Positions 19,495 to 54,304 of a stretch of 64,000 nucleotides of DNA are shown here, one piece after another. Location of the stretch: NCBI GenBank assembly GCA_009664345.1, contig CP043547.1, positions 682,001-746,000 of the forward strand, written 5' to 3'. The position numbers were made by a program, and so were the translations under genes. The notes beneath the pieces were generated by a model, which saw only the letters and a list, made by a program, of their open reading frames with translations, was not told where the DNA came from and did not search any database. Each line of letters begins with the position of its first letter. Position 1 is the first letter of the stretch. Origin of the DNA: Planctomycetales bacterium 10988 (lineage in GTDB: Bacteria; Planctomycetota; Planctomycetia; Pirellulales; Pb10988).

Positions 19495-19584
19495 TGGCTT
19501 CTCCTGTTGCTAGGGCTAATAAATCCTTGGGAACGGCCGGCGTTATATGGGGTTGTGTTGGCGGCGAACGGGGCCGTGCGCCCG

Positions 19585-20835: not shown

Positions 20836-20954
20836 GAGGTCCCCGTAGCGAATTTCCTCGATGTTTTTGAGGCCCTCAAGCGTATGGACCTTCGTACCGA
20901 ATGAAGTCTGTTGGTGTCAGGCCAATTGCTTCACACAGAGGTGGAGACATACGC

Positions 20955-21410
20955 TCATTCTTGACCGGACGCATCCTCGGGCAGAGGCGGCTGCTCCTGG
21001 GCATGCTCGATGTAGGGGGCGAGTCGCTTCCACTGCTTTTGCAGAATGCGGAGTCCTTCGGGGTCTTCCTCAACCTTGTAGTCCTCAACGAGGTTCCCCT
21101 CTTCATCCCAACGTCTACGGGTTACGTACCTTCCAACTTCAACTTCAGCCTGTTCCGCTAGCTGGCCATTCTGGTGCCAAACCTTCTGACTGCCGTGGGG
21201 AATTCCCATCAGGAAATCTTCTTCCTTCCAAAGTTTTCCGTAAGCCCAAGTCCTTGACTTTCCCCAAAGGAGTCCATCACGGTACTCCTGTTCCGAATCC
21301 AGTTCGTTGTGATGGTGGACACTTATACCGGTAAAGGGGCTGCCTTGGTAATGCTCCAGGCCGTCATCACCGGGATAGTCGAGATCGTAATCCATAACTT
21401 TTTTTTTCAT
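20955..21410 (-). CDS. YwqK-like immunity protein for the giant toxin
   Basis: ATG 21410 (MKKKVMDYDLDYPGDD) has AAAGGTAG just upstream and lies 42 bases after the stop of the giant gene, so the two are probably co-transcribed. The 151-residue product has the same repeat plan as the array copies but is clearly more divergent: YRDGLLWGKSRTWAYGKLWK, GIPHGSQKVWHQNGQLAEQA, RRRWDEEGNLVEDY. Position directly after a YwqJ-like toxin domain is typical for the immunity gene. It stops 36 bases before the start of the orphan cassette frame. Confidence 0.8.
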   Translation of the reverse strand: MKKKVMDYDLDYPGDDGLEHYQGSPFTGISVHHHNELDSEQEYRDGLLWGKSRTWAYGKLWKEEDFLMGIPHGSQKVWHQNGQLAEQAEVEVGRYVTRRRWDEEGNLVEDYKVEEDPEGLRILQKQWKRLAPYIEHAQEQPPLPEDASGQE

Positions 21411-21452
21411 AATTTCTACCTTTAAGTGTTCGATGATGTGTGAGGACAAAAC

Positions 21453-33400: not shown

Positions 33401-36400
33401 TGAAATGGTGAAGACTCAATCCATCCTCATCCGAGAGGGAGCCATGCAGGACCGGCTTGGTTGTTTCTTGACTGGGATCACCAGGTTGGGCTCCTTCGAT
33501 TTCGTCATATTCCGCCAGCATTAAATTGTTGATTGAAGGTGCGGCAGGTACTTCTATGCGGTAAGTGAAGGTGAGCGTTTGCCATTCCCCATAAACATAC
33601 CCAATGGTCGCGTTGTCCCATTCAAGAGTTCGAACACGGACGGTTACCTCTTCTCCATCCTCGTAATCACCTGATAATCGATAGCTAAAACTTTCCCCGA
33701 CGCCAACCGAGAGAGAACGGTCCACACTCTCTCCAAGGACGGGATCATAGTTTTCATCGATTTCAATAAAGGTCTGAATGGCACTACCGTCGAGGTCCAC
33801 AAGTGTCCCCGATATTTGAGGGTTGGTAGTCTCTTTTTGATTTTCTACAACTGTATAGTCGACAAAGTCAAAGTCTTGGATTGTAGCAATCTGATTTTCA
33901 ACCATCGTGTAAGCAACATCAAAGGCTGTCCACTCTCCAAAGACCTCCTCGGAATTTTCAAAATCCCATTCAACAGGCCTAATGTTAATGTCGTCATTCG
34001 CCCCTGTTTGAAGATGTGGGGTCAAGTCATAAGTGAAAAAGCCATTTTCAACGAGTGCAAACTCTCCTTCATCCACCAGGCTGTCGCCATTCCAGTCAAT
34101 ATGTGTGTATAAATATTTTCCGCCCTCTTGATCAAAAACAAAACCTACCAAGCGGGTATCACCTTGATAGATACCGTTTTCCTGCTCCCCTTGAATTCTA
34201 AGATTTGACAATATTGGGGGTGCATTGGAACCGGGATCACCGGACGGTTGTGGCTGGACCGTCAAGGTGAAATCATAGTGCCTTGTAAGGGAAGTGCCAT
34301 CTATCGTTTCGTCGTCGCTGACTAAGATGCGTATCACCGCTTCGCCAGTGACATCCTGATTGAGTTCAAATGTTAGATCCCCTGAATAAAGGTCTATCGA
34401 TGGCAATTGAACAAAGTCTGCCTCCCCAATGGTTTGATTCGCCTGAACCGCCACGGCAATGCTAAGGGATTGGAGTTCATGGGAGGGACCCGCCACCAGA
34501 TCATAAATATATTCAGGGATCGTGACTTCACCAGAATTGACTGGAATTGTAAAGTCCCCCATATATTTAAAGGACGGTGGACGATTCTTGGGATTGATCG
34601 TTAAAGTAAAGTCCTGAGGATCAGAGGTATCGATCCCTCTCCCATCTGTCGTTCTGCCCCCATCATCTTGAACGGTTACTCGAAAAGTGACCGTTCCCCA
34701 CTTTTCTGGGTATGTATCAAACTTTAAAGTTCCATTGGATGTTTCGTCTGTGTCGATGTTTAAATACTGAACAATCTCTGCTCCTGTCAGAATTTCCACG
34801 TGATACGAGAGAGCCTTCTGAGTTGATTCGTATGGAGCGCCTGGTAGAAAAGATAGCCAATCTCCAATTTCTTGAGGGCCGCCGTCCTCGAAGAAAACTG
34901 GGAAAGACTGCAACACTTCGAAGCTTGGTTTGTGATTTGGCTGGAGATTGAGTGTTAGTGTGCGAGTGATAGATACCGTATCTCCTCCAAAGGATTCTGT
35001 TGCGATTGCTTCAATCTGAAGCTCGACAGTCCCTTCATAATCTAGGGGAGGAGTAAATTTTACCTCTCCTAAATCCAGCTGATTAGCATTGATTTCTTCA
35101 AGATCTGGAGTGTCGATCAGCCAGGAACCATCGAGCTGAAGAGCGCCCAGGGAGAAAGTCGAACCTTCGGGAAAGCCTTCCATTCGAATTTGTAAAGTTT
35201 CTGAATCATCGCTTGTGTGACTCTCAACAAGAAGTGGAATCTCCGTTTGATTGATGGTGTACTCGCCGGTAGATAAATTTGTGATCAGAACCGGAGAATC
35301 GGCTACTGCCTCAATGACAAGATCGATACTTTCGGTGATGGTATGCGTTATCGAACTTTCGTTGATTCCATTATCATTTAAAGAGATCATCAACTCATCC
35401 GGGCCGCTGTAATTAGCGTCCCCGCGATATTGAAGCGATGTCAGCGCGGATTGAATTGTTAAAAGGTCCCCTTCAATTTCAAGGATTGAAGAAGGTGTCA
35501 CATCGCCTGAAGTCAATGTCAGAACTCCGTGGCTAACTTCAAGCGTTAAGAAATAGGTACCTGACTCTCCGGGTTGATCGGTTAAGTTCAATCCTGTGAA
35601 GGTTGCCAGTTGATCCTCGAAGAAAGTGAATGTCGTAGGTAGGTCGACGAACGTAGGTGAATCGTTCTCAGGTGCAACTTCGATGGTAAAGTCGTAACTC
35701 TGCGACTTTATGATTCCATCAATATTTGCATCGTCCTCAATGATGACCTGAAACTCAAAGGTACCAAAAACGTTCTCTGCTAGTTGAAATTCAAGGTCGC
35801 GATGATAAAGCTCGTTCTGTTCATCGTACCATTGAACAATCTTTGGAAAACCCGTCGCTGTAAAAGAATCCTCGATGTTGGCCGTGTCAGAAACGACCTC
35901 AAAACTATAGGTTTGGCTTTCACGTTCTCCTACAGAAACGCTGGTAATAAAATCTTCAATTACATGCAGTTTCGGCAGACCGTTTTCTTGTTCATCTTCC
36001 GTGACCCCAACGGTTGACTGTGAAAGAGCAAGAGAAGGAGGATCGTTCACATTTTGAACAACAATCGTAAAATTTTGTTCGACGGTAAAGCCGGGCGTTC
36101 CATCTTCATTGAAGTCCGTTAAGGAAACAAGAATCGTCGCGGTGCCATGGGCATGCTCTTCTGTTTGAAACACCAAGGCCCAGGGTAAGGAATGGATATC
36201 CCCTAGCTCCTCGAATCGAGGTGAGCCTTCCGGCGTGAAGGTCAAAGTGTCATCTGTCAGGTTTTCAGCAACTGTTACAACGATTTCGAAATCTTTATTT
36301 TCGTTGTCCGGACCCGTAATTACACTCTGCAACCAATTTTCAATTCGGTGAAAACCTAACACGCCATGAGCAGTTTCATCTTCGGCAACTAGCGTCGAAG

Positions 36401-39245
36401 AACCCAGCAAAGTAAATGTCGGAGGTTGATTGACAGGGAGAATATGAATCGGCAAATTTACCAGAGTTATTTCTTCCGCTGGGCCATAGCCATGATTGCC
36501 TCGATCCCCCACTTGGATAGAAAGTCTAGCTTCTCCAAAATCTTCTTCTTCAGGGGTATAAAGCAGGCTAGCAAGCTTTGTATTGAGACTGGCCAGCGTT
36601 CCAATGATTAGCAAGGAGTCTTCAGGAGAGGTATAAGCTTGTAAGTCCTCATCGAAGAATTGAAGCTTTCCTTTTGTGACGGAAATCGTCACTTCCAATT
36701 CATCTGTATCCAACGCATCTGGATCAGAGATCACCAAAGGTGCCAAGGTAAGGGGGGTATCTTCGAGAGTTACCACATTCCCTAACAGATATTCCTCTTG
36801 GCCATTAACCTGAGGACCTTGGTTTGGGGAATCGTAGTAGTTTCCAGCGACGTCGAGAGTACCTCCGCTCCCTCCGCCATAGGGCTCTAGAAAGGCAGCC
36901 GATGCATAAATGGCGTTGGGATTATTGGGGTCGGTCGTGAAAGGAACCGGAGAAAGGGTTACCGTCGATGGAACCGATAAATCGAGAGAAAGGATGGTAA
37001 GTTTGGCGGATTCATAATCTGGATTATTAGGGTTTTGTGGGTCTTCAACAATCGTTTGGGTTGCCAATAGGATTTCAGGTTTACGATCGTGTCCAAGCTC
37101 ATATAAATCGTTATCCCCTAGGGTAATTAAATCGGTAGAAGCAATCCCCGTTATGTGTTTATCTGTTAAATCGAAGCTACCGAGGCTGACGGTCCTTCGG
37201 ACCATCGGAGAGTCAGCGGGATCGCTTGGATCGTAGTTATGATTCCAAGTAAAAATTTGGAGTTCCGCGTTCTCCGGTGAAGTTGCGTTCTGCGAAGCAG
37301 TTATAATTTCTGCATAGCCATCTTCATCTAGGTCCGCCACGGCTACGAAGATATCGTAATCGTGGTAAACCATCGGATCGTCATCGTAATCAAGACCGAC
37401 GATTGGAGTTGCCTCGCTCCCAGAGAGCAGATGCTGATCATCGGGGTGACCACTAAAGACAGGGATAAGTCCTCTGCCGGTCAATCCCGTTGAGGCAATG
37501 ATGTCAGGATAGCCGTCGTTGTTTACATCACCCGTGTTTACGATGGTCGAGGCTGTGGAATAGCTAAGATCAAAGGCATAAAATTCCATTAAAAGATCGG
37601 GCTTGTCACGTCCATTGGGTGCCCCGCTGTAAACTCGGACTGGAGGTGTATTCGCCCGGTATTTATGATGGCCTGGCGATACGATAATGTCAGAATATCC
37701 ATCCTGGTTGATGTCCGTCGAAGTGATATTCACACCATCCCAGTGGTGGAAGGTTGGAGAACTCTCGGAGGTTTTATAATCCTCATACGCATAGAATTCC
37801 CAAAGTTTAACAAGGCCCCCCTCGCTAGGCCTCACCTTGCCGTCAAAAACCTTGATGAGATCGAAGCCAACATGGTCGGGATTGTTTACATCAAACCCGG
37901 TCCGATAACCCGGAGCGGTCATCAAGTCTGGGATACCATCCCGATTGACATCTCCCAATGCGACATTCACTCCAAAATCGCTCAACGATCCATAGGGGAG
38001 ATATTCACTGCTCACGTACGGAGTGAAATACAGCCACTGAGATAAATCGTTCGTATTGAAGGTTCGAACTACATGACTTCCAGTCGCGTCGAGACCGGTA
38101 GCCACAAAGAATTCTGAGGCTGGGGCAAAGATATTGGGTTTCCAATTCCCCACCATGGGAACCATCGATCCAGCGAGCGACGAAAAGCTCTCTAGCAGAA
38201 GGGGTTGCTCGAAACTGACTTCTTCAAAAAGAGTACTTGAGTCATTTGACGGATCGGCATCGGTTAAAGTGCCGTCCTTATCAAGCTTAAAAATTCCATT
38301 GCCTGAACTGTCGATATAAAAGAATCCCAACCGATCGTTATGATGAGGATTGCTTTGATTTCCCGCTTCAGGCTTCCACCAATTTCCAGTCAGGGGTTGA
38401 ATGTTTGATGCTGAGGAATTGATCTGGATGGTTTTATAATGGTTGGCAATAAAGTCGCTACTACTAAAATTGGGCGGAGTATAGCCGGTAGTGGCGATGT
38501 CTTTGTAGACGGATAGATCGAAGTCGACTAAAGTAAAGGTTCCATTTAGAAAGAACCCTATTTCGTCGCTCGTTTCATTGGTGACAGGCGTGTCGTTCAC
38601 GATTTTGGTGTGATCGAACCAGTTTCCGACAACCGCCAATCCATACCCGGAATTGAACTGCAAAATAGGGTCGCCCTGGCTGTCAAAATTGCCATCGACA
38701 TCGAGGACGAGCATCCCATCTCGGTGAATCCCAATCTCGTCAAATCCATCCCCATCCCAGTCGCCCACAATCGGCTGATCCGTTGCCAGCCCATAAACAA
38801 AGCTGCGATCGCTATTGGCGGCTGAGGTTGGGTCCCAAACGCCATTTCCATTCACATCGAGCATCCAAGTCCCAAGTCCATTGGAATCCGTAAAAAGTCC
38901 AAGAGAATCGTAGGTGTTATCAGACCCCTTCCAACGGCCTTTCAAGATTTGGTCCGCCGCTGGGGAAGGGTTATTGACAGGATCGATTCGGGCTTCCACC
39001 GGAGACCCAAATTGTCCCGTCAGGATCGTCTGGGTTTGTCCAATATCTTCAAAAGTCAGCGAAAAATCTTGTAGATATTGGGCTGAATCCGTTTGATAGA
39101 TCCCAAGGTAATCCCCTGTCATCATCTGCCTTGGTTCAAGCTGCTCAATGGCAAGATTTTCCGGCTCCCGATTTTTGCGTCGGCGGGCTTGACGGGATTT
39201 TTGGATATACTTCGACCAACGTTTCCAAGCAGATTGTTTTGCCAT
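21453..39245 (-). CDS. Giant LEPR-motif surface protein with Hint and YwqJ-like deaminase toxin tip
   Basis: The uninterrupted 5930-residue frame starts MAKQSAWKRWSKYIQ and carries IEQLEPRQMMTG at 34-44, the N-terminal mark of planctomycete extracellular proteins. Residues about 425-650 hold FG-GAP loops (DVNRDGIPDL, DINQDGYSDI, DVNNDGYPDI, DLDEDGYAEI). About 830-2790 is a series of cadherin-like or CHDL-like beta domains (EDTPLTLAPL, NDPPSLALSQSTVGVTEDE, YRGDANYSGPDELMISLND). About 2810-4390, and again 4610-4930, are Ala/Glu/Gln-rich helices likely to be coiled coil, with two small DGDGxAD beta domains between. A helical segment leads to a Hint domain at about 5520-5667 (CFPAGTMVHTLEG to WVHN). 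The last 260 residues are a deaminase: GPVLTVLKDLKTGKLYYGQN, HAEIDAL (about 5865), CKVC (about 5912). It probably forms a long cell-surface fibre that releases the toxin by Hint cleavage; target and export route are not visible. Confidence 0.88.
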   Translation of the reverse strand: MAKQSAWKRWSKYIQKSRQARRRKNREPENLAIEQLEPRQMMTGDYLGIYQTDSAQYLQDFSLTFEDIGQTQTILTGQFGSPVEARIDPVNNPSPAADQILKGRWKGSDNTYDSLGLFTDSNGLGTWMLDVNGNGVWDPTSAANSDRSFVYGLATDQPIVGDWDGDGFDEIGIHRDGMLVLDVDGNFDSQGDPILQFNSGYGLAVVGNWFDHTKIVNDTPVTNETSDEIGFFLNGTFTLVDFDLSVYKDIATTGYTPPNFSSSDFIANHYKTIQINSSASNIQPLTGNWWKPEAGNQSNPHHNDRLGFFYIDSSGNGIFKLDKDGTLTDADPSNDSSTLFEEVSFEQPLLLESFSSLAGSMVPMVGNWKPNIFAPASEFFVATGLDATGSHVVRTFNTNDLSQWLYFTPYVSSEYLPYGSLSDFGVNVALGDVNRDGIPDLMTAPGYRTGFDVNNPDHVGFDLIKVFDGKVRPSEGGLVKLWEFYAYEDYKTSESSPTFHHWDGVNITSTDINQDGYSDIIVSPGHHKYRANTPPVRVYSGAPNGRDKPDLLMEFYAFDLSYSTASTIVNTGDVNNDGYPDIIASTGLTGRGLIPVFSGHPDDQHLLSGSEATPIVGLDYDDDPMVYHDYDIFVAVADLDEDGYAEIITASQNATSPENAELQIFTWNHNYDPSDPADSPMVRRTVSLGSFDLTDKHITGIASTDLITLGDNDLYELGHDRKPEILLATQTIVEDPQNPNNPDYESAKLTILSLDLSVPSTVTLSPVPFTTDPNNPNAIYASAAFLEPYGGGSGGTLDVAGNYYDSPNQGPQVNGQEEYLLGNVVTLEDTPLTLAPLVISDPDALDTDELEVTISVTKGKLQFFDEDLQAYTSPEDSLLIIGTLASLNTKLASLLYTPEEEDFGEARLSIQVGDRGNHGYGPAEEITLVNLPIHILPVNQPPTFTLLGSSTLVAEDETAHGVLGFHRIENWLQSVITGPDNENKDFEIVVTVAENLTDDTLTFTPEGSPRFEELGDIHSLPWALVFQTEEHAHGTATILVSLTDFNEDGTPGFTVEQNFTIVVQNVNDPPSLALSQSTVGVTEDEQENGLPKLHVIEDFITSVSVGERESQTYSFEVVSDTANIEDSFTATGFPKIVQWYDEQNELYHRDLEFQLAENVFGTFEFQVIIEDDANIDGIIKSQSYDFTIEVAPENDSPTFVDLPTTFTFFEDQLATFTGLNLTDQPGESGTYFLTLEVSHGVLTLTSGDVTPSSILEIEGDLLTIQSALTSLQYRGDANYSGPDELMISLNDNGINESSITHTITESIDLVIEAVADSPVLITNLSTGEYTINQTEIPLLVESHTSDDSETLQIRMEGFPEGSTFSLGALQLDGSWLIDTPDLEEINANQLDLGEVKFTPPLDYEGTVELQIEAIATESFGGDTVSITRTLTLNLQPNHKPSFEVLQSFPVFFEDGGPQEIGDWLSFLPGAPYESTQKALSYHVEILTGAEIVQYLNIDTDETSNGTLKFDTYPEKWGTVTFRVTVQDDGGRTTDGRGIDTSDPQDFTLTINPKNRPPSFKYMGDFTIPVNSGEVTIPEYIYDLVAGPSHELQSLSIAVAVQANQTIGEADFVQLPSIDLYSGDLTFELNQDVTGEAVIRILVSDDETIDGTSLTRHYDFTLTVQPQPSGDPGSNAPPILSNLRIQGEQENGIYQGDTRLVGFVFDQEGGKYLYTHIDWNGDSLVDEGEFALVENGFFTYDLTPHLQTGANDDINIRPVEWDFENSEEVFGEWTAFDVAYTMVENQIATIQDFDFVDYTVVENQKETTNPQISGTLVDLDGSAIQTFIEIDENYDPVLGESVDRSLSVGVGESFSYRLSGDYEDGEEVTVRVRTLEWDNATIGYVYGEWQTLTFTYRIEVPAAPSINNLMLAEYDEIEGAQPGDPSQETTKPVLHGSLSDEDGLSLHHFIEIDLDGDEIVDDILYTINEDGTFTYEPGLLIGYGEVSIQLRAVKWDITQGSFISGSWQSIEFVYKEIANTLPSIGDLNVDYVKEVSPSEHIARISGTLSDEVKQGYEYRIEVDWLGDSGSWDGGNPPWVDYDPDTSTGDPPVYESFVLYSHTSGEAGFAFNYVFEETNPEGQQAVRFRAIEIYFDFDSGTFVEETGDWASIIFLNEVTPQAELPTWENLTITTVTEGLGNSSESKLLIEGEIQAVQEEEGAIFFLEIDLDQDGSADDSTLVDPGSPFSLLIDHEHSQGLGAISLRISKTLSGVADPLSSQWMPQTISSPIAGDVEISEAPKLHYLDVQFSTFFDDANTPGLEQSLVLTGYIEDLSFILPEDPDLYPHTKSDYSLEIKIPTSDGYTVITVVDDPASNVYVRPNSLFHVDLSNYFSTLDDQVSFEIRAIESLATYTDTGISSIDPTNMGEWVTYQQVPSTDFDGQISWETDRIVIEEDSNYAFSPEDLPAINALLPQNEIQLSISVTTGVLTFDDSAFPGVDLTGNGSNSLQVGGQVDVLNSLLQTLSYQPETDLSGEVTLQFVAEQLSSPGNTLLEQKSINLEIESINDPTEISLTLTTPIQVEEDSEFHLTGASSIQVEDADGDDRLITLSLASDVATFDIEGTTSDLAYLIGNDTRSVTLVGTSPALNLALANIRIQPLADYHGTVDMTVRAYDEGYGSEITTLEVNLAEVSNVNDAPTLKLPSSLITEVNETISFSGYRQFSVSDIDSEADTHEVVLTTTEGYFLFDGELSSSTLSGLNTKTLVLSGDLEDILSDLELVVYQPNGFVGTATLTVTATDELGSPLLSATVSESTEITVYELQPFPEFPEVSSPTGPDDPDFEANYEAEIDAAIQAAEDALLLAQAQLETDLNTASTNHETLLHGDPNLADDGLIGALEAAITSAKSQATQDKDAAKAQLDSILGAYSNLIIGFELFDFVWPEAPASYTLPEAPEDVPQLPSLTGPVFSPEATTSYLADVEQAEDDRDEALDSPLQTYNDAISDADAVYYNIVGNNPNDPYNQTGTAEVTRGEELADALEAFNEALAEINPFQDSYDFALTNYYLQIGTAELLRDAKTFGLELIYEAFVVGQGNLTDQILAPYEARVNQLSAAYQAHPSEENEEALRQAEEDLDRIELSRYVDEGIAIANAEAIWQKAVNNAHFEFGKASTEATTQYHQTHHDFWDWDASNRANALLEYLQESAQIEERYQTALAKAERNWELDKATAKLNYDREVASIELAFALTKVDLQLSSFASWSQDQDDSDWTVYQTDLAFERADHERDIAERNNEYTSKHLDLEFERVVRDIESQFEAEKKTIEATRLRESQRAEIDHQFTIEFIRARTARVNTLSVELASRNAQFSEEYKLFTDNIIDLKNDQDVAYYRFWERSRSVESDETIDQAAKDEALEQISTSEHRHNYNIALDHLNERMSLLEKLLPIQSKLEENKAKAQDDQASRLHDAKTIHFTHSALVSATYEVQVAEAQSEFEKSGADSAYRLTVELAEEQKRYAVDLAAYQRDLELALSDHHTSFRRDVLAAYQTTVEAWRGTDPDSWHLYHSDLALAEIQRLQVEAEVSQATNEKLARLDFDVASKQAEVQYGQIVEEALIEKTYILALSSTTFEHAKSTAMAPFKPVGIESEFVESAAIPFWDAFSGAVYTYEDVAAKDRAKLEVVTEWYLEYEKMELAYNKEGVWLKFLDLTTNESQDDAQLELTLQRGEEETQHSKIYYRKLMQIELERDHGKLSTSPGWSLADFTSYTTATEAIEADATLAKSLADTEFTRTVELVDSRAKYDKLDRSITNYLESARAKLSTAHAVKLSENQLNYEKLVSAAEADLPIGLLNEVILDLEREENEEDSLVTFQLARATADLDYVQTQTSLQKTREDLLADVKFNLEKANAEIDLSRFLGTLKAQADFEDAIEVASVAYDKISAEALRDWKAGNAEGERTYRRATTLQAMEDRVFLREATLWLTYQRSQLNFIDYLRGYSESQKKVDVAEMMTQYIDTILDYRSESTNTYAEAGESLALSAANSDHAYLAALANLDLSFSESINLAEQELRKSKSDIEYTYAVERSKAKTTWVTGTQQSQVDYLAKLLEVDPNDGLSTTQRLFREQASAEISYHYSLALEEIEALTAEDTEAEAERRAAYAAWITSVGPSYSSYLENFSGSGASHQLAEALLNQALQVQSQMAQQEKIFAQADATKQHTLNIGVKNDLYAKQERELLHAFTSEMAKADLESVKSSALARKTFVQENEEASLEYYRSLATMSAEARTTGSSFSSTEPSNKLRLSQADASVKLTEGLQSAAVDWVKATSTASKDYLVEGTTFADSLSQSLATLQAAFGTKLASIDFDYSRDLAFLDEAHAVAQSTALGLKEVGQTTASANFLLAQSNANQIQIHGVEETLTTNASFSVLRLLNDTGTPADGETLDATIVGQVDVGSLPIFVQVEIDWDGDGQADGSTYTDAEGNFYYTPQGFPQNVPTTIRARTIVGNTVSEWEQLDPGNASGEVTLLSTGSSYQVVSLEASFNSNEPEKLDIFGQIVASSQSVAQIEIRIDVDGDGVSDSFDPDGDGLADPILTESDGSFSVTVENVSEGFLVLAAKVEDGNVNPWTILGLPLAHNAAAIEAVSSWGETLVARADAKNQWTTYITTRMVADALIIAETRNDYTLATSVAQRQSSLSTAASERDLAQFVARQTANNSRASSQARKDFILGVSEAEQAYRLQRAEIQAAYITGRELAEKDELVIGDSDAYAAKLTELDELRIESLDGAKQNYARLEQEAFSTWLEADLQASRQATLAITQEMTDHANRVHSAIDNFLALQQAEGELFQQQRTQIQKEFSKDASSFYRDALENSLNQESALSEYELEAALIDDEYVEAVADQQELTDQGVATANQAFEAGSVLAMLNYSVSAAGAQSFQIHNLLDASRDHQLNYLLQREQSIANEEFDSPLYFPIFDSPPLVGEFDLPTYLHFSVVDGYGFRGLHVEPSANPQFLNSDWDEFEQTAYPNISLAIPDFGHITLGDGFTFISLGDGMASDGFDYFDAYRYSKVPSEISYSENPEFSDQNFDYHFFGSTGTFGDFWSAENQPEGDEEDPNFHMIPPIGLGFPDQPDGGQLGLDYSFAYGYEAADYHPSDWNGIAEGTDFILDAITRGFYPEYEDEIPYKNLLSNVALRLAFGYELNEADPIISQSDVHGTEHENVIFDFSTVDLYADVVETTVADPRTWFEFLGDSSREAYNLTTTVATQSYSWAESVVIATPDALWAAAEGYAKLNLQLAHFLSDPLRVFNGARNFHYGMLVGFFYDGLYGDIELVGDLAWKAGEIAYRYSPQRWITHSILSQFTDEIEGYSSPIHLAFQDASDKYEEYSEFYEENLQPYVQAVLKDLKLIASNPEMATAILEGDFDSIAPKLTPETRLVLDVASETITALVDLIEQQFTEMTEDERFQLAGRITGMILYEVAADLAIESLTGGTATPALVAFKGTKVTRWLEKIAGTTLKLMPDLPFTTLKNRLEDLRPHLDEMAETAERIKNSIACFPAGTMVHTLEGLKEIQDVQPGELVLTRKENSTHEDTTPLYRKVLKSFETNPAKLYHLDIQTDAGVEERITTTCNHPFYRIQDLNFVDAKMLRPGDLLSLPEGRTARVLQTSGEFAPPGELFTTYNLCVEETHTFFVGEAGAWVHNARSAPCLSTIERIVEAFGDMGPNDSKLEIILDHLKKLSANPDVTDYFKDAYDVINDLARKGEIDRELYAYFLKKFARERDPKWTDPLSQELAEELRDAAIEMFAALVEVENTEPPGKKFIEVDNGLGGKKLKAAYTPRGPVLTVLKDLKTGKLYYGQNYVGAPWPDLVDDLDDRLDQYIEAGNPPYVPMKTGWAGSHAEIDALNQALKARGASQNAVDFDDFVVFNIRTKDKETSSMGMSIERCKVCKNLTRGVRALSDFLL

Positions 39246-40591: not shown

Positions 40592-43500
40592 ATGTTTATG
40601 TCTGAAACTATCAACGTGGGATCCGTAAGAGGAAAAGTCGATTTTGCTGTCATCACGATTAGAAATGATGAGTACGAAGCCGTTTGGGGTAGAGTACCTA
40701 ACCTAAAGCTCGTAACCCATGGTCAAAGGTTTTACCGGTACGGCACAATAAAGACTGTTCGCAACGAGTCGGTAAACATTGCGATTGCCAGAACATCGGG
40801 GCAAGGTCAAGGACCAGCCCAGCAAATTGCAAACAATATGCTCACGGAACTCGAACCAAAGTGGGTCGTATTAGCAGGAATAGCCGGCGCGTTTCCCAAT
40901 GATGACTTCTCTTTGGGAGACGTTGTTTTAGCTTCTAGAATAGTTGACTTTTCGGTGCAAGCAGCAATTAATGGAGGTACGACGGAGTATGCCCCAGGTG
41001 GCGGGCCAGCCCACCGAGATGTACAGAATCTATTGGCAATCATCTCAAGCCTGAACGATACTCTAAGAGGCTGGAACAGTCAGGACATGTTGGGGTTGGA
41101 GAAGCCTACTTTGATAATTCCAGAGTCGGATGAAGACGACCGGATTTATGGTGAAAACCATCGAGTCGAAGTCTTCAAGTCAATTCGGCGTCACTTCTCG
41201 AAGGACAGACTACCAAAATTCCACGACGCTTGTTTGGCTACTTCCAACACATTGGTCAAAGACTCCGCGTTGGTTACCGAGTTCAGGCAGGTGGCGCGTA
41301 ACGTTGAATTTGTGGAAATGGAGGCCGGTGGTGTCTTTTTGGCCTGCCACAATCACCAAATTCCACTCTTGTGTATTCGAGGCATAAGCGATGTTGTTGG
41401 ATTCAAACGTGGTCCGGATTGGACTGAATTTGCATGCAACACAGCTGCGGCATTTTTCATTACGGCGGTGAAAAATTTACCCCTTGAAGTTTGGGGACCA
41501 ACATTGGAACCTAGAGGTCCATCGACTCCCAAGGACCTGGGTGCTGACATTCCCGCTGCCGAGGCGACGAAGTCACGAAGTGTTAAAGAGTTGCTAGCTG
41601 AAATGCTTCGCTTCTCTAAAGGACTTCTACACTACGAAATAAACGACGAAGAGCGTCTCCATCTTAGTATTGATGATAGGCTCTGCGAACTCGATCAAAA
41701 GCACAAAGTTTCGCTTTTGCTGGGAAGACCCGGTAGCGGAAAAACTTGTTTGTTGGCACATATTGGAAACAAATTCATTTCGAAAGGACATGCGGTCCTC
41801 GCAATCAAGGCAGATCTCTTTCCACATGACAAGTCCCTGGAGAAATGGGCAAATGACGAGTTAGGCCCCGACTGGAATTTTTATGAATTAGTTCAAACTG
41901 TGTCGGCATGTGAGACAGTTGTCGTGCTGGTAGATCAGCTGGATGCATTGGCAAATACCGTCGATCTGATGTCGTCGAGATTGAATGAACTTCTTGCTTT
42001 TATCGAGAGGTGTAGCAATCTTGCAAATGTTCATGTTATTAGTTCCTGTAGGAATTTTGACTTCTCGTATGATCCTCGATTCCGGCGGCTGAATCCGCGA
42101 ATTTTTGAGATTGAAGTTCCGACTTGGGACGAAGCCAGCAAGAAGTTGCGGGATTCAGGAATTGACGCGGATCAAATCCAACCAAAGTTAAAGGAGCTGC
42201 TTCGGACGCCACAGCACCTGACCATGTTCCTGCGTCTAAACTCTGTTTCTGGATCAAAAGTATTTGAAACGTATTCCGAGATGCTGGGCGAATTCTGGAA
42301 TGCCATTGTCATCACAAAAGCGGAAATAGATTTCGTGCATCAACTGACGCGGCAACTGGTTGAAACAGAATCCATATGGACTCCGATGGCCGCTCTAGAG
42401 GGAGATGAGGCAATTATTACCAAGTTGTCTTCTGAGGGACTTTTAGAACGTAAGAACAACCGACTCAGATTTTCGCACCAAACCATTCAAGAGTACGCGG
42501 TGGCGAGAATGTTTGCTGAAGCGAATGATCCGTTAGCCAATTTTGTTTTGAATCACCAAGAGACAATATTCCAACGCCCAACGATTTGGGCCGTCCTAAC
42601 TTATCTCCGTGATAACGCTAAAGTGAAATATCGTTTAGAAGTCAATGCGATTCTAGAAGGCCAACCACGCCTGCACGTCAAATTGCTGCTTGTTGATTTT
42701 ATCTGTCGCCAGCCTGATCCGACCGAGCACGAAATCGAAATCATTGGTAGATGGCTTAGCGATAAAGAACTCCGGCTGAGAATTCTCAGCGGTATCAACA
42801 ATAACCCTGCTTGGTTTAAGACGTTCAAGCATTCACATTTACCTTCTATTATGGGAGATCCCCAAATTGAGCAATGGCCTTTGATCTCGGTACTCAGGAA
42901 TGCATGGAAATTTGACTGGGACACCACCTACAAACTTATTACGGCAAATTGGGCTAGATGTAGCGAATTTGATGAAATGACGCTAAGAGCGATGGAAGAT
43001 TGTGAAAGATGGACGTCAAAGGTCGTTTCGCTGATAGAACACGTTGCAACGCGAATTAAGCGACAAAACGGCCACAGCCATCAGATCGAAAGTATTGTCG
43101 GTGTTATGTCCGTCAAGGCACCAGAGGATGCTGCGAGGCTGGCGGCGAGAGTTGTTGCCACTCCGACCAAGAAACAGCCGGAGGGGAAAAGTCCCTATAA
43201 CAGCCCGCTGGAATTGCGTGAAGGATGGTACGACTTGGAAGAAATCGCTAAGGCGGCCCCTGCTGTTTTCTTGAGTGAGATCACCGAATGGCTAGTAGCA
43301 ACTGCAGAAAAGTTTCACGAGGGGAACAGCGGCTCAGCTTCAGTACAGCACTATCACGGAACCTGCTGGACGTTGGATAACCAACTACATCAACGTGAGT
43401 CGCCGGTACTAACGGCTATACAAACATGTGTCGATCTGATGTCAAAAGAACATCCGAAGCAGTTCGTTAACTTGTTTCGGCGGTATTGGCATTCTGAAAA

Positions 43501-45454
43501 CGCCGTAGTCCATCGCATATTTATTGACGGTTTGATGAATGTTGATGCGGGGTGCTCCAAAGATGTCTTTGAGTACCTTATGGGTGATGATCGACGCTTC
43601 ACGGTTGGCCGGCTTGGAAGCACGCAGAAGTCTCAATCCGGTCAGTTGATCAACCACGTGTTCACTCATCTAGATGAAATTCAAAGAGAGCAGCTTATCG
43701 AGAAAATTCGCAGATGGAGCTACTACAAATTAGATATCGAACTGAATGACTCACAGCAAGAGTGGGATCGAGAGTCTCGGCTGCATCTTCTTGACGCGAT
43801 ACCCGTTGAATTTCGATCCGATTCACTTTCCCAATTCATTGAAAGCGAAAAAAGGGAAATACCAAATTGGGACCGGGAACCCACGAGGGGACATTCTGGA
43901 AGAGTGAAGATAATTCCGCCGATGGAACAAGCAGAAATGGAAACTGCCACTGATCAAAGATTGATAGAAGCGTTCTCGAAACAAAAATCTGACCGCCTTA
44001 ATTTGAGTGAAGTTGACGATGGATTCGAGGAACAGGGTGGGAGTGAAGCCGCAGCAAACGAATTATCAAAACTTGCGGAATCGAATCCTTCCAGAGCCTC
44101 AGAAATCATTCGATTGTTGGTTTCAAAGGGGATGACGAGAAATATCCACCAGACTTTGCGAGGGTTTTCCGTAAATAAAGATCGTGAACTCGTTTTCTCG
44201 CTAATCACAGAAATCAGCGGCCAATGTGATGAAAGGGAAGCCTTTCGATCCGCCGCATCTGAAGTGTTGCTATCGCATTGTGATGATGATGGCCTGCCTG
44301 AGGAAATTATAGGTTTATTGGAATCATGGCTCGCGAAACCATGGGATATTACCCGCGATCTAGTTGGCGAAGATGGCAAAAACGAGTGGCGTCCTGAGCA
44401 AAGCCTTCTCTGGACGAGTCTCGGTTCTGTAATCATTGATACCGATAATTCCTACTTCCCACTTATCGCCTTGACTCAGAGCCTTCTCAACAAGAATAAT
44501 CCGCAGGGCGATCGCTGGATCACGATACTTCACTCCCACCTTGATAAAGAAGTCTCCTACAAAACGTGGCGAATGTTCTGCCATAGTCTCTATCACATCC
44601 GAGAATCATATTGTTCGGATGAAAGGGGTAGGGCTTTGATTGAGAAATTATTCGAGAAATTCCCGCAACTTGCTGCGGAGCCATCTGGCTGCAGGTTACT
44701 TGCGATGCTTTCCACAATCCTCGAACCGAATTTCCTAAAGGTTATCTTCGCCCGGCTTACTGAATCGGGAGATAATTTCGACCAGCAGGCAGCTGGAGAG
44801 TTGATAACCCTTTGTGCTTTGCTGGATGAAACGAAAAACTGGGGGGCATCAACGCTAGACCATCACCTGGTCAAAGAGAAGAGTCCTCCGCCGGCATTCC
44901 TAGTTGGAGTCACGCATGCTGCAGTCAATCTCTGGAGCGACTTAAACAAGCCGAAAGAATGCTCAAAAATTATCGCTCAGGTGGTTGGCTTCGGCTGTGC
45001 TGAGGCAACAGATGCCTTACAACGGTTGTTTTGGAACGAAATAGTACTCTCTGCCGACAACCAGACCTCCGCTATCTTGCGGGAACTAACGGCTAAGATC
45101 GAAACGGTGAATGGGGAGCTAGCGAAGGAGGTACTAGGTCGGCTTACTGGTATTCTTCCTCATCTAAGACCAAAAATCCTTGCCTTCGCTCAGCGGTTGC
45201 TTGATACTCGTTGCGACGAGCTGCGGCGGCTTGAATTCAACGCCTATGAAGTCGGGCCTTATTTAGTTGAGATTGCAATGACTCTTCAACGATTCGATGA
45301 TACTCGATCGGCAGGGCTAGACCTGTTTGAGAAGTTGCTGGCTACCGGGCTAGCTGAAGCGGAGAAGGCCTTAAAAGATGTTGATTCCGTCGACGCTGTA
45401 GCACCAGAACACCCACGAGCATCCCGTCGTCGACGTAGAAGAAATAGACCTTAA
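40592..45454 (+). CDS. STAND NTPase with nucleoside-phosphorylase-like domain, probable defence protein
   Basis: The 1620-residue protein begins with a nucleoside phosphorylase/MTA-SAH nucleosidase-like domain (about residues 15-310): FAVITIRNDEYEAVW, VVLAGIAGAFPNDDFSLGDVV, VEFVEMEAGGVFLACH and LCIRGISDVV, which keeps the phosphate/ribose-side Glu-Met-Glu motif and the Asp of the base pocket. A NACHT-like ATPase follows, with Walker A GRPGSGKT (378-385) and Walker B VVVLVDQLDAL (about 443-453). The winged-helix end FSHQTIQEYAVARMF is typical of NACHT modules. The remaining 1000 residues are helical repeats likely to sense a ligand. Such PNP-STAND proteins are known as bacterial anti-phage or conflict proteins; the phosphorylase domain could destroy a nucleotide pool on activation. 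Substrate and trigger are inferred only. Confidence 0.85.
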   Translation: MFMSETINVGSVRGKVDFAVITIRNDEYEAVWGRVPNLKLVTHGQRFYRYGTIKTVRNESVNIAIARTSGQGQGPAQQIANNMLTELEPKWVVLAGIAGAFPNDDFSLGDVVLASRIVDFSVQAAINGGTTEYAPGGGPAHRDVQNLLAIISSLNDTLRGWNSQDMLGLEKPTLIIPESDEDDRIYGENHRVEVFKSIRRHFSKDRLPKFHDACLATSNTLVKDSALVTEFRQVARNVEFVEMEAGGVFLACHNHQIPLLCIRGISDVVGFKRGPDWTEFACNTAAAFFITAVKNLPLEVWGPTLEPRGPSTPKDLGADIPAAEATKSRSVKELLAEMLRFSKGLLHYEINDEERLHLSIDDRLCELDQKHKVSLLLGRPGSGKTCLLAHIGNKFISKGHAVLAIKADLFPHDKSLEKWANDELGPDWNFYELVQTVSACETVVVLVDQLDALANTVDLMSSRLNELLAFIERCSNLANVHVISSCRNFDFSYDPRFRRLNPRIFEIEVPTWDEASKKLRDSGIDADQIQPKLKELLRTPQHLTMFLRLNSVSGSKVFETYSEMLGEFWNAIVITKAEIDFVHQLTRQLVETESIWTPMAALEGDEAIITKLSSEGLLERKNNRLRFSHQTIQEYAVARMFAEANDPLANFVLNHQETIFQRPTIWAVLTYLRDNAKVKYRLEVNAILEGQPRLHVKLLLVDFICRQPDPTEHEIEIIGRWLSDKELRLRILSGINNNPAWFKTFKHSHLPSIMGDPQIEQWPLISVLRNAWKFDWDTTYKLITANWARCSEFDEMTLRAMEDCERWTSKVVSLIEHVATRIKRQNGHSHQIESIVGVMSVKAPEDAARLAARVVATPTKKQPEGKSPYNSPLELREGWYDLEEIAKAAPAVFLSEITEWLVATAEKFHEGNSGSASVQHYHGTCWTLDNQLHQRESPVLTAIQTCVDLMSKEHPKQFVNLFRRYWHSENAVVHRIFIDGLMNVDAGCSKDVFEYLMGDDRRFTVGRLGSTQKSQSGQLINHVFTHLDEIQREQLIEKIRRWSYYKLDIELNDSQQEWDRESRLHLLDAIPVEFRSDSLSQFIESEKREIPNWDREPTRGHSGRVKIIPPMEQAEMETATDQRLIEAFSKQKSDRLNLSEVDDGFEEQGGSEAAANELSKLAESNPSRASEIIRLLVSKGMTRNIHQTLRGFSVNKDRELVFSLITEISGQCDEREAFRSAASEVLLSHCDDDGLPEEIIGLLESWLAKPWDITRDLVGEDGKNEWRPEQSLLWTSLGSVIIDTDNSYFPLIALTQSLLNKNNPQGDRWITILHSHLDKEVSYKTWRMFCHSLYHIRESYCSDERGRALIEKLFEKFPQLAAEPSGCRLLAMLSTILEPNFLKVIFARLTESGDNFDQQAAGELITLCALLDETKNWGASTLDHHLVKEKSPPPAFLVGVTHAAVNLWSDLNKPKECSKIIAQVVGFGCAEATDALQRLFWNEIVLSADNQTSAILRELTAKIETVNGELAKEVLGRLTGILPHLRPKILAFAQRLLDTRCDELRRLEFNAYEVGPYLVEIAMTLQRFDDTRSAGLDLFEKLLATGLAEAEKALKDVDSVDAVAPEHPRASRRRRRRNRP

Positions 45455-48920: not shown

Positions 48921-49380
48921 TTAGACTCCTGCCTTGATCCAGCAGGGGATGGATTTACTCTCGACGGTTATGTGGATATCGGGGACGACTTGCTGCATTC
49001 CCTCGATCATGAGTCGTTCTATTTCCCGAGTATGTTGAGCCAGGTCAGAGTTCTCTGGAACTTCGATCAATACCTCGTCGTGGATGAAATTGACGAGGCG
49101 GTAACCTGCTCGCCAAAGTTTCCAGAGGGCAAGCTTTGCCCCATCGGCAGCCAGACCCTGGAAGATCGTATTGTGGCGGGCACAGTAGGTTGCTTCGGCC
49201 CGTAGTCGGCCTGTGAGGGTGAAGACTGCTTCCTTGCCAACGAGGCCCATTACCGCCCGCTGCAGCGAAGGAGAGGCGTCACGATTATGGATATCAAACC
49301 GATGCTTCTCGGGGAGTAACTCAATCCGTCCTTCCACTTTCGACCAGAAATAATCAATATCTGGCTGTTGATAAGTAGTC
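48921..49380 (-). pseudogene. Family A DNA polymerase, C-terminal fragment
   Basis: The frame, open from the edge of the IS5-type element, reads TTYQQPDIDYFWSKVEGRIE, then ARHNTIFQGLAADGAKLALW and VNFIHDEVLIEVP. The last is motif C of family A polymerases (HDE, with the catalytic Asp). It ends at 48921. The other 80 percent of the polymerase, including motif A and any exonuclease, is missing, and it does not reappear on the far side of the element, so a deletion accompanied or followed the insertion. The branch with ARHNTIFQG looks like the accessory polymerases on planctomycete islands, not the housekeeping polA. Confidence 0.8.
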
Positions 49381-49382: not shown

Positions 49383-50911
49383 CCCTGAAAAAGTCTTAAA
49401 AATTCAATTTTTCCTGGGTATGATAGCTTTAACACCGGCGAAGGGTAGGGTAAACTTTGCCAGGATTTTCGGCCTTGACCTTGCAAACCTTGCAAACGGA
49501 GAACGGTGATGAAGCCGCCTTTGAACCCAGAGTCGAACCAGCAGGACCTGTTTCGGGCGTCGTTCGAGCAGATTCTCAACCCCGAGCATCCGCTTGTTCG
49601 TCTCGCCGAGCGGATCGATTGGCGGCGGTTTGAGGCGGCGTTCGAGGGCTGTTATGCCGCCGACTTCGGGGCTCCGGCGAAGGCCACCCGGCTGATGGTC
49701 GGGCTGCATTATCTCAAGCACGCCTTCGGCGAGTCGGACGAATCGCTGCTGGATCGTTGGGTGGAAAACCCGTACTGGCAGTGCTTTTGCGGCTTCACGA
49801 CGATGCAACATGTGCCGCCGATTCATCCCACCGCGCTCATCAAATGGCGGCAACGCGTCGGGGCCGAACGGCTGCAACAGCTGCTGGAAGAGACCCTCGC
49901 TCTGGCCGTTCGTAGCAAGCAAGTCCGGCCTCAAGAGCTGCGGCAGGTCACCGTCGACACGACCGTGCAGGAGAAAAATATCACGCCGCCGACTCGAAGT
50001 TGCTGCTGAAGGCGATCCACAAACTCGGCAAGGCGGCCAAAACGCGGGGCATTCGCCTGCGGCAATCGTATGTCAACGTCGCCAAGCAGGCCGCCCTGCA
50101 AGCGAGTCGTTATGCCCACGCCAAGCAGTTCAAGCGGATGCGACGCCGCCTCAAAAAGCTCCGCACTTGCCTCGGTCGGGTGATCCGCGACGTCCGCCGC
50201 AAGCAGCCGAAGCCCGATTTTTCCCTGGAAAAACTGCTGTTCTTGTGCGAACGCGTCCACCGGCAGCAGCCGCATGATAAGCAAAAACTCTACAGCCTCC
50301 ACGAGCCGGAGGTGGTTTGCATCAGCAAAGGCAAGGCCCACCGGCGGTACGAATTCGGGCAAAAGATCGCCCTCGCGACGAGCAATCGCGGCAATTGGGT
50401 CGTCGGCGTGCGGCTGTGCGAGGGCAATCCGTACGACGGCCACACCCTCGCCGCGACGCTGCAAACGGTCGAGTCGACGACCGGCCAAGCGGTGAGCGAC
50501 GCCTTCGTTGACAAGGGATATCGCGGCCATGATTACCGTGGTCCAGCGAGGGTTCACTTGGCCGGCAGCAGCACGCGAGGCCTGAGTCGGACCCAGAAAA
50601 AACGCCGCCGACGCCGCAACGCGATCGAGCCAAAGATCGGCCACCTCAAGTCGGACCACCTTCTGGGACGTTGCTTTCTCAAGGGCTTGGCCGGTGACGC
50701 GATCAACGCGGTCTTGGCTGGAGCGGCGGCGAACATCCGAAAACTACTTTTGGCTTTCGGGCCTGCGCGGATTGGTTGGCCGTGGCAACAGCTCGCCCTG
50801 CTCCTCAAGCTCCTCAAAGAAGCGTTTACCTGCCCAGCAATGGCTCCCCCCCGAACCCGCACTCCCCTCCTCGCTTGATAAAAGCGAGAAAAAAAGACCT
50901 TTTTTCAGGGA
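49383..50911 (+). mobile_element. IS5-family insertion sequence with broken transposase
   Basis: The left end reads TCCCTGAAAAAGTCTT and the right end, inward, TCCCTGAAAAAAGGTCTT, giving inverted repeats at 49383 and 50911. The interior is GC-rich, unlike both flanks. It encodes a 460-residue type transposase in two frames. No clear target duplication is visible, which fits the loss of polymerase sequence on one side. It is not related to copies A and B at the nucleotide level. Confidence 0.8.
49509..50878 (+). pseudogene. IS5-family transposase, frameshifted
   Basis: The first part starts MKPPLNPESNQQDLFRASFE, contains LYxLKHAFxESDE-like and VENPYWQCFCG motifs, and runs to VTVDTTVQEKNIT with the first catalytic Asp. 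Near 49990 a small deletion changes the frame; the second part continues DSKLLLKAIHKLGKAAKTRG, SYVNVAKQAALQASRY, then DKGYRGHDY with the second Asp and RRRNAIEPKIGHLKSDH with the Glu. The full-length protein would be about 455 residues, normal for this group (transposase with DDE and N-terminal DUF772). As it stands the gene is inactive unless the shift is a sequencing error. Confidence 0.8.
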
Positions 50912-50965: not shown

Positions 50966-53900
50966 TTACGCAGCTTCAAGAATCCCGGCTCCGAAGGTGA
51001 ACCCACCGCCGAAGGCACAGAGTCCAAGTTTCTTTCCAGGCTCGACATGCGTGAGCAACTCGGCCAAACAAAGCGGGATGCTGCTACTGGAAGTATTCCC
51101 ATAATGACGAATGTTACTGTAGACCTCGGCATGGATGCGTTGCGAGATCGTATCGAGAATCCGTTGATTCGCCTGGTGCGGTACGACGAGGTGTAAATCA
51201 TCGAGGCCGATCTCATCTTGCTGACAGGCATGATTGAGACTCGTTACCATTGAGCGAACCGCCTCCCGGAAGACCCGGGTGCCATTCATGTGAATGTAGC
51301 CATCTTTAGGAAAAGGCACCGCCAGCGAGGAGCCGTCTTCGCCGATCGCCGAGAGTTCCGGTCGCGAGACTCGGGCTCGGGCATGTTGCAGATGATCTTC
51401 TCCATAGAGGACCGTGGCCGAGGCGGCATCCCCGAAGAGAATCGCCGTTTGCAGATCATTCAAATCCAACAGCGGCGACATCACCTCGGTCGTGACAATC
51501 AGCACGCGGCCATCGGGGCGGCTTTGCAAGAAATCGTAGCCATTCTGCAAAGCATACAGGTAACCACTGCACGCGGCATTGATATCATAGGCTTGGATCA
51601 TCGACCCGCCTTGCGAATAGCTGAGCGAATTCAGCAACTGGCAAGCCATCGAAGGTGTCACCGCCGTGGGGCTGGTCGTATGCACGATCACGAGGTCGAG
51701 ATCGTCGAGCTTGAGATTCTCACGCTCGAACAATTCCCAACAGGCTTGGCCAGCCAAGTGCAGGGCGTCCTCACGATCATTAATCCAGAACCGCGACTCA
51801 ATCCCCGTGCGGCGGACAATATCATCCGGCGTCATCTCTTTGTTTTTACCAAGGAGTTCTTCGTTCGAAATCGATCGACTCCCGGTGACGCAGACGACTT
51901 CGGAAAGCCCCACCCCATATTTTCGCGGTTTCGAAGCACGATCCTTCGGCAGCGGCAAACGCCGATCAATCGGCTTCTTGGTGAGCTTCGGCGTGCCGGG
52001 TTGTTCTTGAGTGACTTGTTTACGGCGTGCCCTCCCGGCTGCGGTTCGCAAGACAAGCAACGTCTCGCCGACGTCGATCGAATCGCCACTTCCCGCCTTC
52101 AAAGTTTCGACCGTTCCAGAGTTGGGTGAAATCAACTCGAAGACCGACTTGGTTGCTTCCAATTCGGCGATGACTTGCCCGCGTTCGACCTGGTCGCCGG
52201 GTTTGACATACATTTCCAAAATCTGCACCGATTCATCCGCAGGGCCGGAGCCGATGGCTTCGATCTCACAGAGTCCCTCTTCGGCGGCAGCGGATTGAAT
52301 CCATTCCAAGTCGAAGTCCAACAACTCCGCGGAAGTTTCCAGCACCTTGCGGAAGGAAGGCATCACTTCGAGCTGATTCGCGAAGTTGCAGGGCACCCAT
52401 GTATCCGATCGCGTAACTCGGCGAATCGAGACCGGAACTCGTGTCTTCTCGGCAACCGTCGCGGCGATCTCCGCGCCAAACCCACAGGTGTGATTGTCTT
52501 CATGCACGATCACCAGGCGAGCGGTTTTCTCGGCGGAAGATAGCACCGTCTTCTCATCCCAAGGCGACAACGAACGCAAGTCGATCACTTCCGCTTCGAC
52601 GCCGGATTTTTCCAGAGCATCCGCAGTTTTCACACAATGCTTGACCGTATTCCCCCAGCCAACCAAGGTAATATCGCGACCGACACGAACCTTGCGGGCA
52701 CTCCCCAGCGGAACGATCGTCTTGGCCGGATCGGCGGTCGTGGCGTTCTCCGAAATGTTGAGACAGCTTTTCGGATAGAAAAAGATCGTCGGTCGTTCCG
52801 ACATAAACGCGGTATTGAGCAACCCGGCGACATCGGCGGCCGTCGAAGGCATCACCACATCAACGCCGGGAATATGCGAAGCGATCGCTTCATAGCTCTG
52901 ACCGTGGAAGGGACCAAGTCCCGGGCGATAGGCACCGCAAGGCACCATCAAAATCACCGGAGCTTCCCAACTTCCATTGGTACGCCAGTAAAGCGTGCCC
53001 ATTTCGGAAACAATTTGATTGAAGGCCAAAGGCAAGAAATCAGCAAATTGCATGAAAGCCACCGGGCGTTTTCCAGCCAAAGCTTGCCCGATCGCCGTCC
53101 CCAAAATCGTCGATTCCGACAGCGGGGCATTGATCACTCGCCCAGGATATTCAGTACTCAACCCCTTGGTCACGCCAAAAACATCCCCTTTGGGGTCTTC
53201 AATATCTTGGCCGAGCAAATAAACCCGATCATCATGTTCCAGCCGTTGACGCAAAGCCTCATTGAGGGCTTCCCGCATGTTTCGTTTGGGAGCGACGTCC
53301 TCTTCTTTTCGCTCGGCTCGCGGATTGGTGAGGTCCGCCATGATCGGCTTCTTGGCATCGAGGAAGGCCACGGGGTCCCCTTCCATCGCCGCCGCTTCTT
53401 CCGCGTCTTCGACTTGTTTCGTGACTTCTTGTCGGATCTCCGCCAGGGTCTCCGGCGAGATCCCTTCTTCCAATAAGTACTTTTCGAATCGAAGGATCGG
53501 ATCGCCTTGCTCGATCGAGGACTTGATATTTTCTTCGGTGCGGTAAACCGATTGATCATCGGCATTCGTGTGACTACAAAGCCGTTCGACTTGCATCACA
53601 ACAAAGGCCGGTTTGCGACTCTCTCGCATTTCATCAACGATGTAGCCAAGTTCTTCATAGACCGAAACGACATTCGTTCCATCGACATAATGAATCGGAA
53701 TGCCATAGAACTCGCTCATCATCCCGCCATCGAGGGCGTAGAAGGTTTTCCCTTCCGTCTTCGTCGAGATCGCATAACGATTGTCTTCGATCACGAACAA
53801 GACCGGCAAATTCTCCCGAGCAGCCTCAGCGACCCCTTCGAGATATTCCCCTTCTTGCGTGGTTCCATCGCCATCGCCACAGAGCACGATCGGACGACTC

Positions 53901-54304
53901 GGATGATCTTTGATGGCCGCGGCGAGACCCGCTGATTGTACGGAATTATTTCCCAGCGGTCCCACGATACTCATGATATTGAGTTCGCGGGCACTCATGT
54001 GGGCGCTCATCTGCCGACCATTCGAATGCGAGGCGGCATTACAATAGAGCGAATCGAAAAAGGCCTTCGGGTTCATTCCCCGAGCCAGCATCAGGGCCTT
54101 GTCGCGATAATGACAATGGAGGAAATCTTCCTGAATCAAGTGAGGAGCCAAACCAGCGATGGCCTCATGCCCGGTCCCAGAAACCTGAAAGAAAACCTCT
54201 CCCCGGCGGGTGAGTTCTTCTTCCAACAGGTCGACCTGTCGGGCCATCCGCATCCAACGATAAAGCGACAAAAGCGTGCGGTGATTCATGCGATTCCGAT
54301 CCAT
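50966..54304 (-). CDS. Fusion: 2-oxoacid dehydrogenase E1 alpha, E1 beta, lipoyl domain, ketoacyl-ACP synthase III
   Basis: I place the start at ATG 54304 (MDRNRMNHRTLLSLYRWMRM), since residues before it do not look like protein. The 1112-residue chain has four modules. E1 alpha: about 1-320, ThDP motif GDGDGTTQEGE (143-153) to EDNRYAIS. E1 beta: 340-665, with LGQDIEDPKGDVFGVTKG and HEDNHTCGFGAE. Lipoyl domain: 680-755, with ELEATKSVFE and acceptor Lys719. Ketoacyl synthase III: 800-1112, with DINAACSGYLYAL (Cys912), VVPHQANQRI (His1043) and HYGNTSSSS (Asn1070), the complete triad. The chain could decarboxylate a 2-oxoacid, carry the acyl group on lipoate and hand it to a synthase that extends it with malonyl-ACP, making a primed (for example branched) chain. 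The linked reaction is inferred; each module is clear. Confidence 0.85.
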   Translation of the reverse strand: MDRNRMNHRTLLSLYRWMRMARQVDLLEEELTRRGEVFFQVSGTGHEAIAGLAPHLIQEDFLHCHYRDKALMLARGMNPKAFFDSLYCNAASHSNGRQMSAHMSARELNIMSIVGPLGNNSVQSAGLAAAIKDHPSRPIVLCGDGDGTTQEGEYLEGVAEAARENLPVLFVIEDNRYAISTKTEGKTFYALDGGMMSEFYGIPIHYVDGTNVVSVYEELGYIVDEMRESRKPAFVVMQVERLCSHTNADDQSVYRTEENIKSSIEQGDPILRFEKYLLEEGISPETLAEIRQEVTKQVEDAEEAAAMEGDPVAFLDAKKPIMADLTNPRAERKEEDVAPKRNMREALNEALRQRLEHDDRVYLLGQDIEDPKGDVFGVTKGLSTEYPGRVINAPLSESTILGTAIGQALAGKRPVAFMQFADFLPLAFNQIVSEMGTLYWRTNGSWEAPVILMVPCGAYRPGLGPFHGQSYEAIASHIPGVDVVMPSTAADVAGLLNTAFMSERPTIFFYPKSCLNISENATTADPAKTIVPLGSARKVRVGRDITLVGWGNTVKHCVKTADALEKSGVEAEVIDLRSLSPWDEKTVLSSAEKTARLVIVHEDNHTCGFGAEIAATVAEKTRVPVSIRRVTRSDTWVPCNFANQLEVMPSFRKVLETSAELLDFDLEWIQSAAAEEGLCEIEAIGSGPADESVQILEMYVKPGDQVERGQVIAELEATKSVFELISPNSGTVETLKAGSGDSIDVGETLLVLRTAAGRARRKQVTQEQPGTPKLTKKPIDRRLPLPKDRASKPRKYGVGLSEVVCVTGSRSISNEELLGKNKEMTPDDIVRRTGIESRFWINDREDALHLAGQACWELFERENLKLDDLDLVIVHTTSPTAVTPSMACQLLNSLSYSQGGSMIQAYDINAACSGYLYALQNGYDFLQSRPDGRVLIVTTEVMSPLLDLNDLQTAILFGDAASATVLYGEDHLQHARARVSRPELSAIGEDGSSLAVPFPKDGYIHMNGTRVFREAVRSMVTSLNHACQQDEIGLDDLHLVVPHQANQRILDTISQRIHAEVYSNIRHYGNTSSSSIPLCLAELLTHVEPGKKLGLCAFGGGFTFGAGILEAA

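Follow-up and report, generated by a model that had tools for sequence, protein, structure and literature searches.

Here we describe a single gene, on the minus strand at positions 50966..54304 of the 64,000-nucleotide stretch of DNA that was analysed (the window), whose 1112-residue product (P0001) joins four modules on one chain: first E1 alpha, then E1 beta, then a lipoyl domain, and last a ketoacyl synthase III (KSIII). Comparison with its relatives suggests that the protein is probably a self-contained, CoA-independent primer enzyme of type II fatty acid synthesis. In the usual route, the product of E1 is passed by E2 to CoA, and the resulting acyl-CoA is then used by FabH. In the fusion, the KSIII core would replace the E2 acyltransferase core and acyl-CoA would be bypassed. 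We know of no described enzyme in which an acyl group passes from lipoate to a synthase, and a search of open-access literature, which omits most subscription journals, found no description of such a fusion.

Modules, active sites and family members

The reading frame of P0001 is open throughout and terminates at a stop codon; it also stays open 5' as far as a TTG at 54589, and the homology of relatives begins near the ATG at 54304. The assignment of the whole gene is based on the frame, on Pfam matches, and on the residues of 32 fusions. The E1 alpha module (residues 16-308; 53381..54259, minus strand) matches Pfam E1_dh (PF00676, 1.5e-43) and carries the ThDP motif GDGDG (143-147), N175, and H245. 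The E1 beta module (residues 341-645; 52370..53284, minus strand) matches PF02779 and PF02780 (Transket_pyr, residues 341-515, 1e-28; Transketolase_C, residues 534-645, 3e-32) and contains E397 and H467. The lipoyl domain (residues 691-752; 52049..52234, minus strand) matches Biotin_lipoyl (PF00364, 1e-14), has an E2p with lipoyl domains as its best solved relative, and carries the putative lipoyl Lys719 (52148-52150, minus strand). The KSIII module (residues 798-1110; 50975..51913, minus strand) matches PF08545 and PF08541 (ACP_syn_III, residues 906-969, 9e-18; ACP_syn_III_C, residues 1027-1110, 2.5e-21), contains Cys912, His1043, and Asn1070, and scores 208 bits against the FabH model of NCBIfam (TIGR00747), below the curated cut-off of 292. 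An AlphaFold model of the whole chain has a mean pLDDT of 68, too weak for placing domains. A reading made earlier from the sequence alone had held that all four modules keep their catalytic residues, and GDGDG 143-147, K719, C912, H1043, and N1070 are indeed all present.

With its E1 alpha and beta modules bearing ThDP residues and a lipoyl domain bearing a lipoyl-type lysine, the fusion resembles PDH, BCKDH, and acetoin DH. Unlike these 2-oxo acid dehydrogenase complexes, it carries a condensing enzyme in place of an acyltransferase core and an E3-binding domain. A Pfam search of P0001 returned no acyltransferase core (PF00198), as the sequence-only reading had also concluded, and no E3-binding domain was found by Pfam between the lipoyl and KSIII modules, where the segment is short and modelled by AlphaFold as low-confidence coil. 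That reading had named residues 755-800 as a place where an acyltransferase might lie hidden; none was found there, the gap (residues 756-796, about 41 residues) being too short for an E2 core, devoid of a Pfam match, and mostly of low confidence in the AlphaFold model. What the gap does contain is a motif, K-x-V/L-T-x-E-x-P-G-T-P followed by basic residues (residues 762-777; 51974..52021, minus strand), which was identified by listing the linkers, recurs between the lipoyl and KSIII modules of relatives, and could be a docking site.

The family comprises 32 distinct four-module proteins with 42-60% identity to P0001, carried by Pirellulales, Phycisphaera, and Kiritimatiellota. Besides the host, 11 genomes of its order have the identical arrangement of modules (50-60% identity), as do four genomes of another family of the same phylum (f68) and about 30 of 146 genomes from the class to which Pontiellaceae belong, with Pontiellaceae genomes among them; in a twelfth genome of the host's order (G695), the fusion is present as two adjoining ORFs. 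Cultured carriers seem to include Rosistilla oblonga CA51 (PMC7716947), Phycisphaera mikurensis (PMC8882080), and Pontiella. An assembly or frameshift artefact is ruled out, given that the module order is identical in dozens of genomes. The architecture had been called uncommon in the sequence-only reading; its order is confirmed, but rather than being isolated it forms a family. Every catalytic residue tested in all four modules is invariant in 32/32 fusions, down to 42% identity, namely GDG, N175, H245, E397, and H467 of E1, and K719, C912, H1043, and N1070 of the lipoyl and KSIII modules. Because the catalytic residues of all four modules are invariant across 32 proteins, selection evidently maintains the fusion as an enzyme of four parts.

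The CoA site and the origin of the architecture

Trp32 and Arg151 of FabH sandwich the adenine ring of CoA (PMC4606726). The Trp32 position is occupied by Trp in 30 of 31 stand-alone FabH proteins of the same order, the FabH of the host genome included, whereas it is Asp, Ala, or Glu in 32/32 fused KSIII modules; in P0001 it corresponds, by comparison with FabH, to Asp828 (51821..51823, minus strand). The fused KSIII modules resemble acyl-CoA-fed FabH (e.g. the branched-chain FabH of bacilli) in family and in retaining the FabH residues Cys112, His244, Asn274, and Arg249. They are unlike FabH in lying within a dehydrogenase chain, in never having Trp32, and in forming a clade apart from the FabH of the same order. 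Since Cys-His-Asn and Arg249 are kept and Trp32 is gone, the residues suggest that the fused modules are functional condensing enzymes in which CoA is no longer bound in the customary manner. The loss of Trp32 falls short of proof because Arg36, which in FabH contacts the pantetheine moiety of CoA and is also situated on the ACP path, is retained in nearly all fused KSIII modules, and these may thus still bind CoA. The Arg151 position is uninformative since it is variable in fused KSIII and stand-alone FabH alike. Position 87, which is Phe87 in FabH and shapes the starter pocket of the E. coli enzyme, is Thr in all 32 fused modules.

The fused members form one clade in both the KSIII tree (unrooted; support 100/100) and the E1 tree (support 100). 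In the latter, family f51 contributes the neighbouring group, made up of E1ab-lipoyl-E2 fusions that share with P0001 the order E1-lipoyl-transferase (join supported at SH-aLRT 94); in the next group out, lipoyl-E2 is encoded by a gene of its own that comes after the E1ab genes. The nearest E1 relatives thus have an E2-type core at the very position occupied by KSIII in P0001. The E2-type cores of the nearest E1ab family (L009-L015, L131-L134) carry DHRxxNG as opposed to the usual DHRxxDG, with the catalytic Asp replaced by Asn, and the reaction of that E1ab-lipoyl-E2-like family may differ from that of canonical E2.

Family f3, which belongs to the same order, has a second combination of E1, lipoyl, and KSIII, in which a gene encoding a lipoyl-KSIII protein (product of approximately 440 residues) directly adjoins the E1ab genes of a distant E1ab clade. 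Of 196 genomes examined from the order, 16 encode the lipoyl-KSIII protein, every one of them from f3, and its adjacency to E1ab was seen in the three genomes inspected; this arrangement is not known to have been described. Like the fusion, it is made up of E1, lipoyl, and KSIII and has no E2 core; unlike the fusion, it consists of two genes, has a different E1 lineage and a separate KSIII clade, and carries Tyr at position 32 and Val at the Arg36 position. Because the f3 E1 lies across well-supported branches from the fusion E1, the tree indicates that E1-lipoyl-KSIII was assembled at least twice. The KSIII identities (split versus stand-alone 36%, split versus fused 30%) and the different site residues favour independent origins of the two KSIII lines, the KSIII tree being unrooted. 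The best reason to think that the lipoyl arm would serve KSIII is this repeated joining of the two, at a place where other lineages carry an E2 core. On balance, we lean towards a reading in which the acyl group passes from lipoate straight to the Cys of the condensing enzyme, a CoA-independent entry built at least twice in planctomycetes with KSIII at the E2-core position.

The placement of KSIII where sister fusions have an E2-type core is also compatible with a reading in which KSIII stands in for E2, carrying the acyl group from lipoate to Cys912 and on to CoA or ACP without condensation, so that the protein would be a single-chain acyl-CoA- or acyl-ACP-forming dehydrogenase. Transfer of a Cys-bound acyl group to CoA would reverse the opening half-reaction of FabH, and the Arg36 kept in nearly all fused modules fits such a role. 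We nevertheless regard it as unlikely, as loss of the adenine-stacking Trp in every member would be odd if the product were CoA-bound, and the malonyl-decarboxylating His and Asn, kept in 32/32, would be needless in a plain acyltransferase.

Proposed reaction and genome context

In the proposed reaction, the ThDP-dependent E1 half would decarboxylate a 2-oxo acid and reductively acylate the lipoyl arm, with lipoate presumably attached at the K719 site. The acylated arm would then swing to KSIII, of its own chain or of a neighbour in an oligomer, and hand the acyl group directly to Cys912. With His1043 and Asn1070, KSIII would decarboxylate malonyl-ACP and condense the two to yield 3-oxoacyl-ACP, and the dihydrolipoyl arm would be reoxidised by the common E3 of the cell. 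Direct transfer from lipoate to the synthase Cys had been put forward in the sequence-only reading and is probably correct, as judged from the loss of Trp, the E2-type core in relatives, and the second pairing of E1 with lipoyl-KSIII.

The host genome encodes aceE with an adjacent E2 (an AceE-type pyruvate dehydrogenase), a second E2 beside an E3, and, elsewhere, a normal stand-alone FabH; both E2s have PF00198 cores, and no other alpha/beta-type E1 was found in this genome. Given this complement, the fusion is taken to be an extra, dedicated 2-oxo acid decarboxylase, and a role as housekeeping PDH is ruled out by the aceE and E2 located elsewhere. The two separate E2s do leave room for an arrangement in which the modules are joined for co-expression or closeness, while E1-lipoyl works with a separate E2 in trans and the acyl-CoA formed is used by KSIII as it would be by an ordinary FabH, acyl-CoA to FabH being the known route. 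We give this little credence: Trp32 is lost in every fused KSIII, yet not in the FabH of the same order; the E2s adjoin aceE and E3 and appear to have partners of their own; and lipoyl and KSIII have come together on two occasions, in one case in a protein that lacks E1.

The genes near homologues, which the sequence-only reading had singled out for inspection, include no conserved neighbours among 30 loci, except in Kiritimatiellales, and none among 8 close relatives. By eye, the Kiritimatiellales neighbours resemble ptsP and an ammonium transporter gene, and in one relative (L063) the fusion lies downstream of genes that by eye resemble rpsL, rpsG, and fusA. A KAS-like gene (FabF-type by eye) is found near the fusion in two f68 genomes (L065, 4696-6102; L067, 14821-16164). 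No biosynthetic cluster was seen beside the fusion gene within the window. Membership in a biosynthetic gene cluster is rejected because these 30 loci and 8 close relatives show no conserved neighbours outside Kiritimatiellales, and the secondary metabolite role raised in the sequence-only reading loses its footing for the same reason.

Several other features of the window were recorded. A transposase in two overlapping frames (DUF772, then DDE; 49506-50878, plus strand) lies 88 bp beyond the fusion gene and is adjoined by a DNA polymerase A fragment (48921-49337). A giant protein of 5930 residues (21453-39245, minus strand) has a pretoxin HINT domain and a YwqJ-like deaminase at its end, and the region downstream (18008-21449, minus strand) encodes several small, related MORN-like proteins and a further HINT cassette (19585-20835); by analogy, this region possibly represents a polymorphic toxin locus of the kind involved in interbacterial competition, one that includes orphan cassettes and perhaps immunity genes. 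A 1620-residue protein (40592-45454, plus strand) combines a PNP_UDP_1 phosphorylase-superfamily domain with an AAA/STAND-like NTPase, a build that matches candidate anti-phage defence proteins.

Substrate and significance

The closest solved relatives of E1 alpha are the 2-oxo acid DH alpha of T. thermophilus (140 bits) and human BCKDH alpha, human branched-chain E1 scoring 111 bits and PDH 88. The substrate call from E1 is weak, however, because the branched-chain E1 alpha of P. putida scores below PDH against the fusion E1 alpha; comparison of E1 beta with branched-chain E1 and PDH gave mixed results. An isobutyryl primer, derived from 2-oxoisovalerate, gives rise to even-numbered iso fatty acids. 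Cultured Kiritimatiellota (Pontiella, Kiritimatiella, and Tichowtungia) have C18:0 together with i-C12:0, i-C14:0, i-C16:0, and i-C18:0 as major acids, in sets that vary (PMC7356697, PMC10880615). No copy of the fusion was identified in Kiritimatiella glycovorans. We therefore propose, with moderate confidence, that the 2-oxo acid is branched, 2-oxoisovalerate supplying an isobutyryl primer for even-numbered iso fatty acids. Confidence is held at moderate because the major fatty acid of Rosistilla ulvae is C16:0 (PMC8303584), this species being a congener of the apparent carrier R. oblonga. Even-numbered iso acids thus appear not to be the main product everywhere. An enzyme that supplies starters to a dedicated lipid or to a secondary metabolite, and not to bulk fatty acids, would accommodate the mainly C16:0 bulk acids of a Rosistilla and the KAS-like gene in two f68 genomes, but is very unlikely given that close relatives have no conserved neighbourhood and that the window holds no biosynthetic cluster beside the gene.

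If the preferred reading, a CoA-independent primer enzyme, is true, acyl-CoA would be unnecessary for starting fatty acids, 2-oxo acids would feed the synthase through a lipoate arm, and a condensing enzyme would join the acceptors of lipoate-bound acyl groups. The fusion would also offer a compact tool for producing branched primers, and one gene could explain the even-numbered iso fatty acids of Kiritimatiellota.
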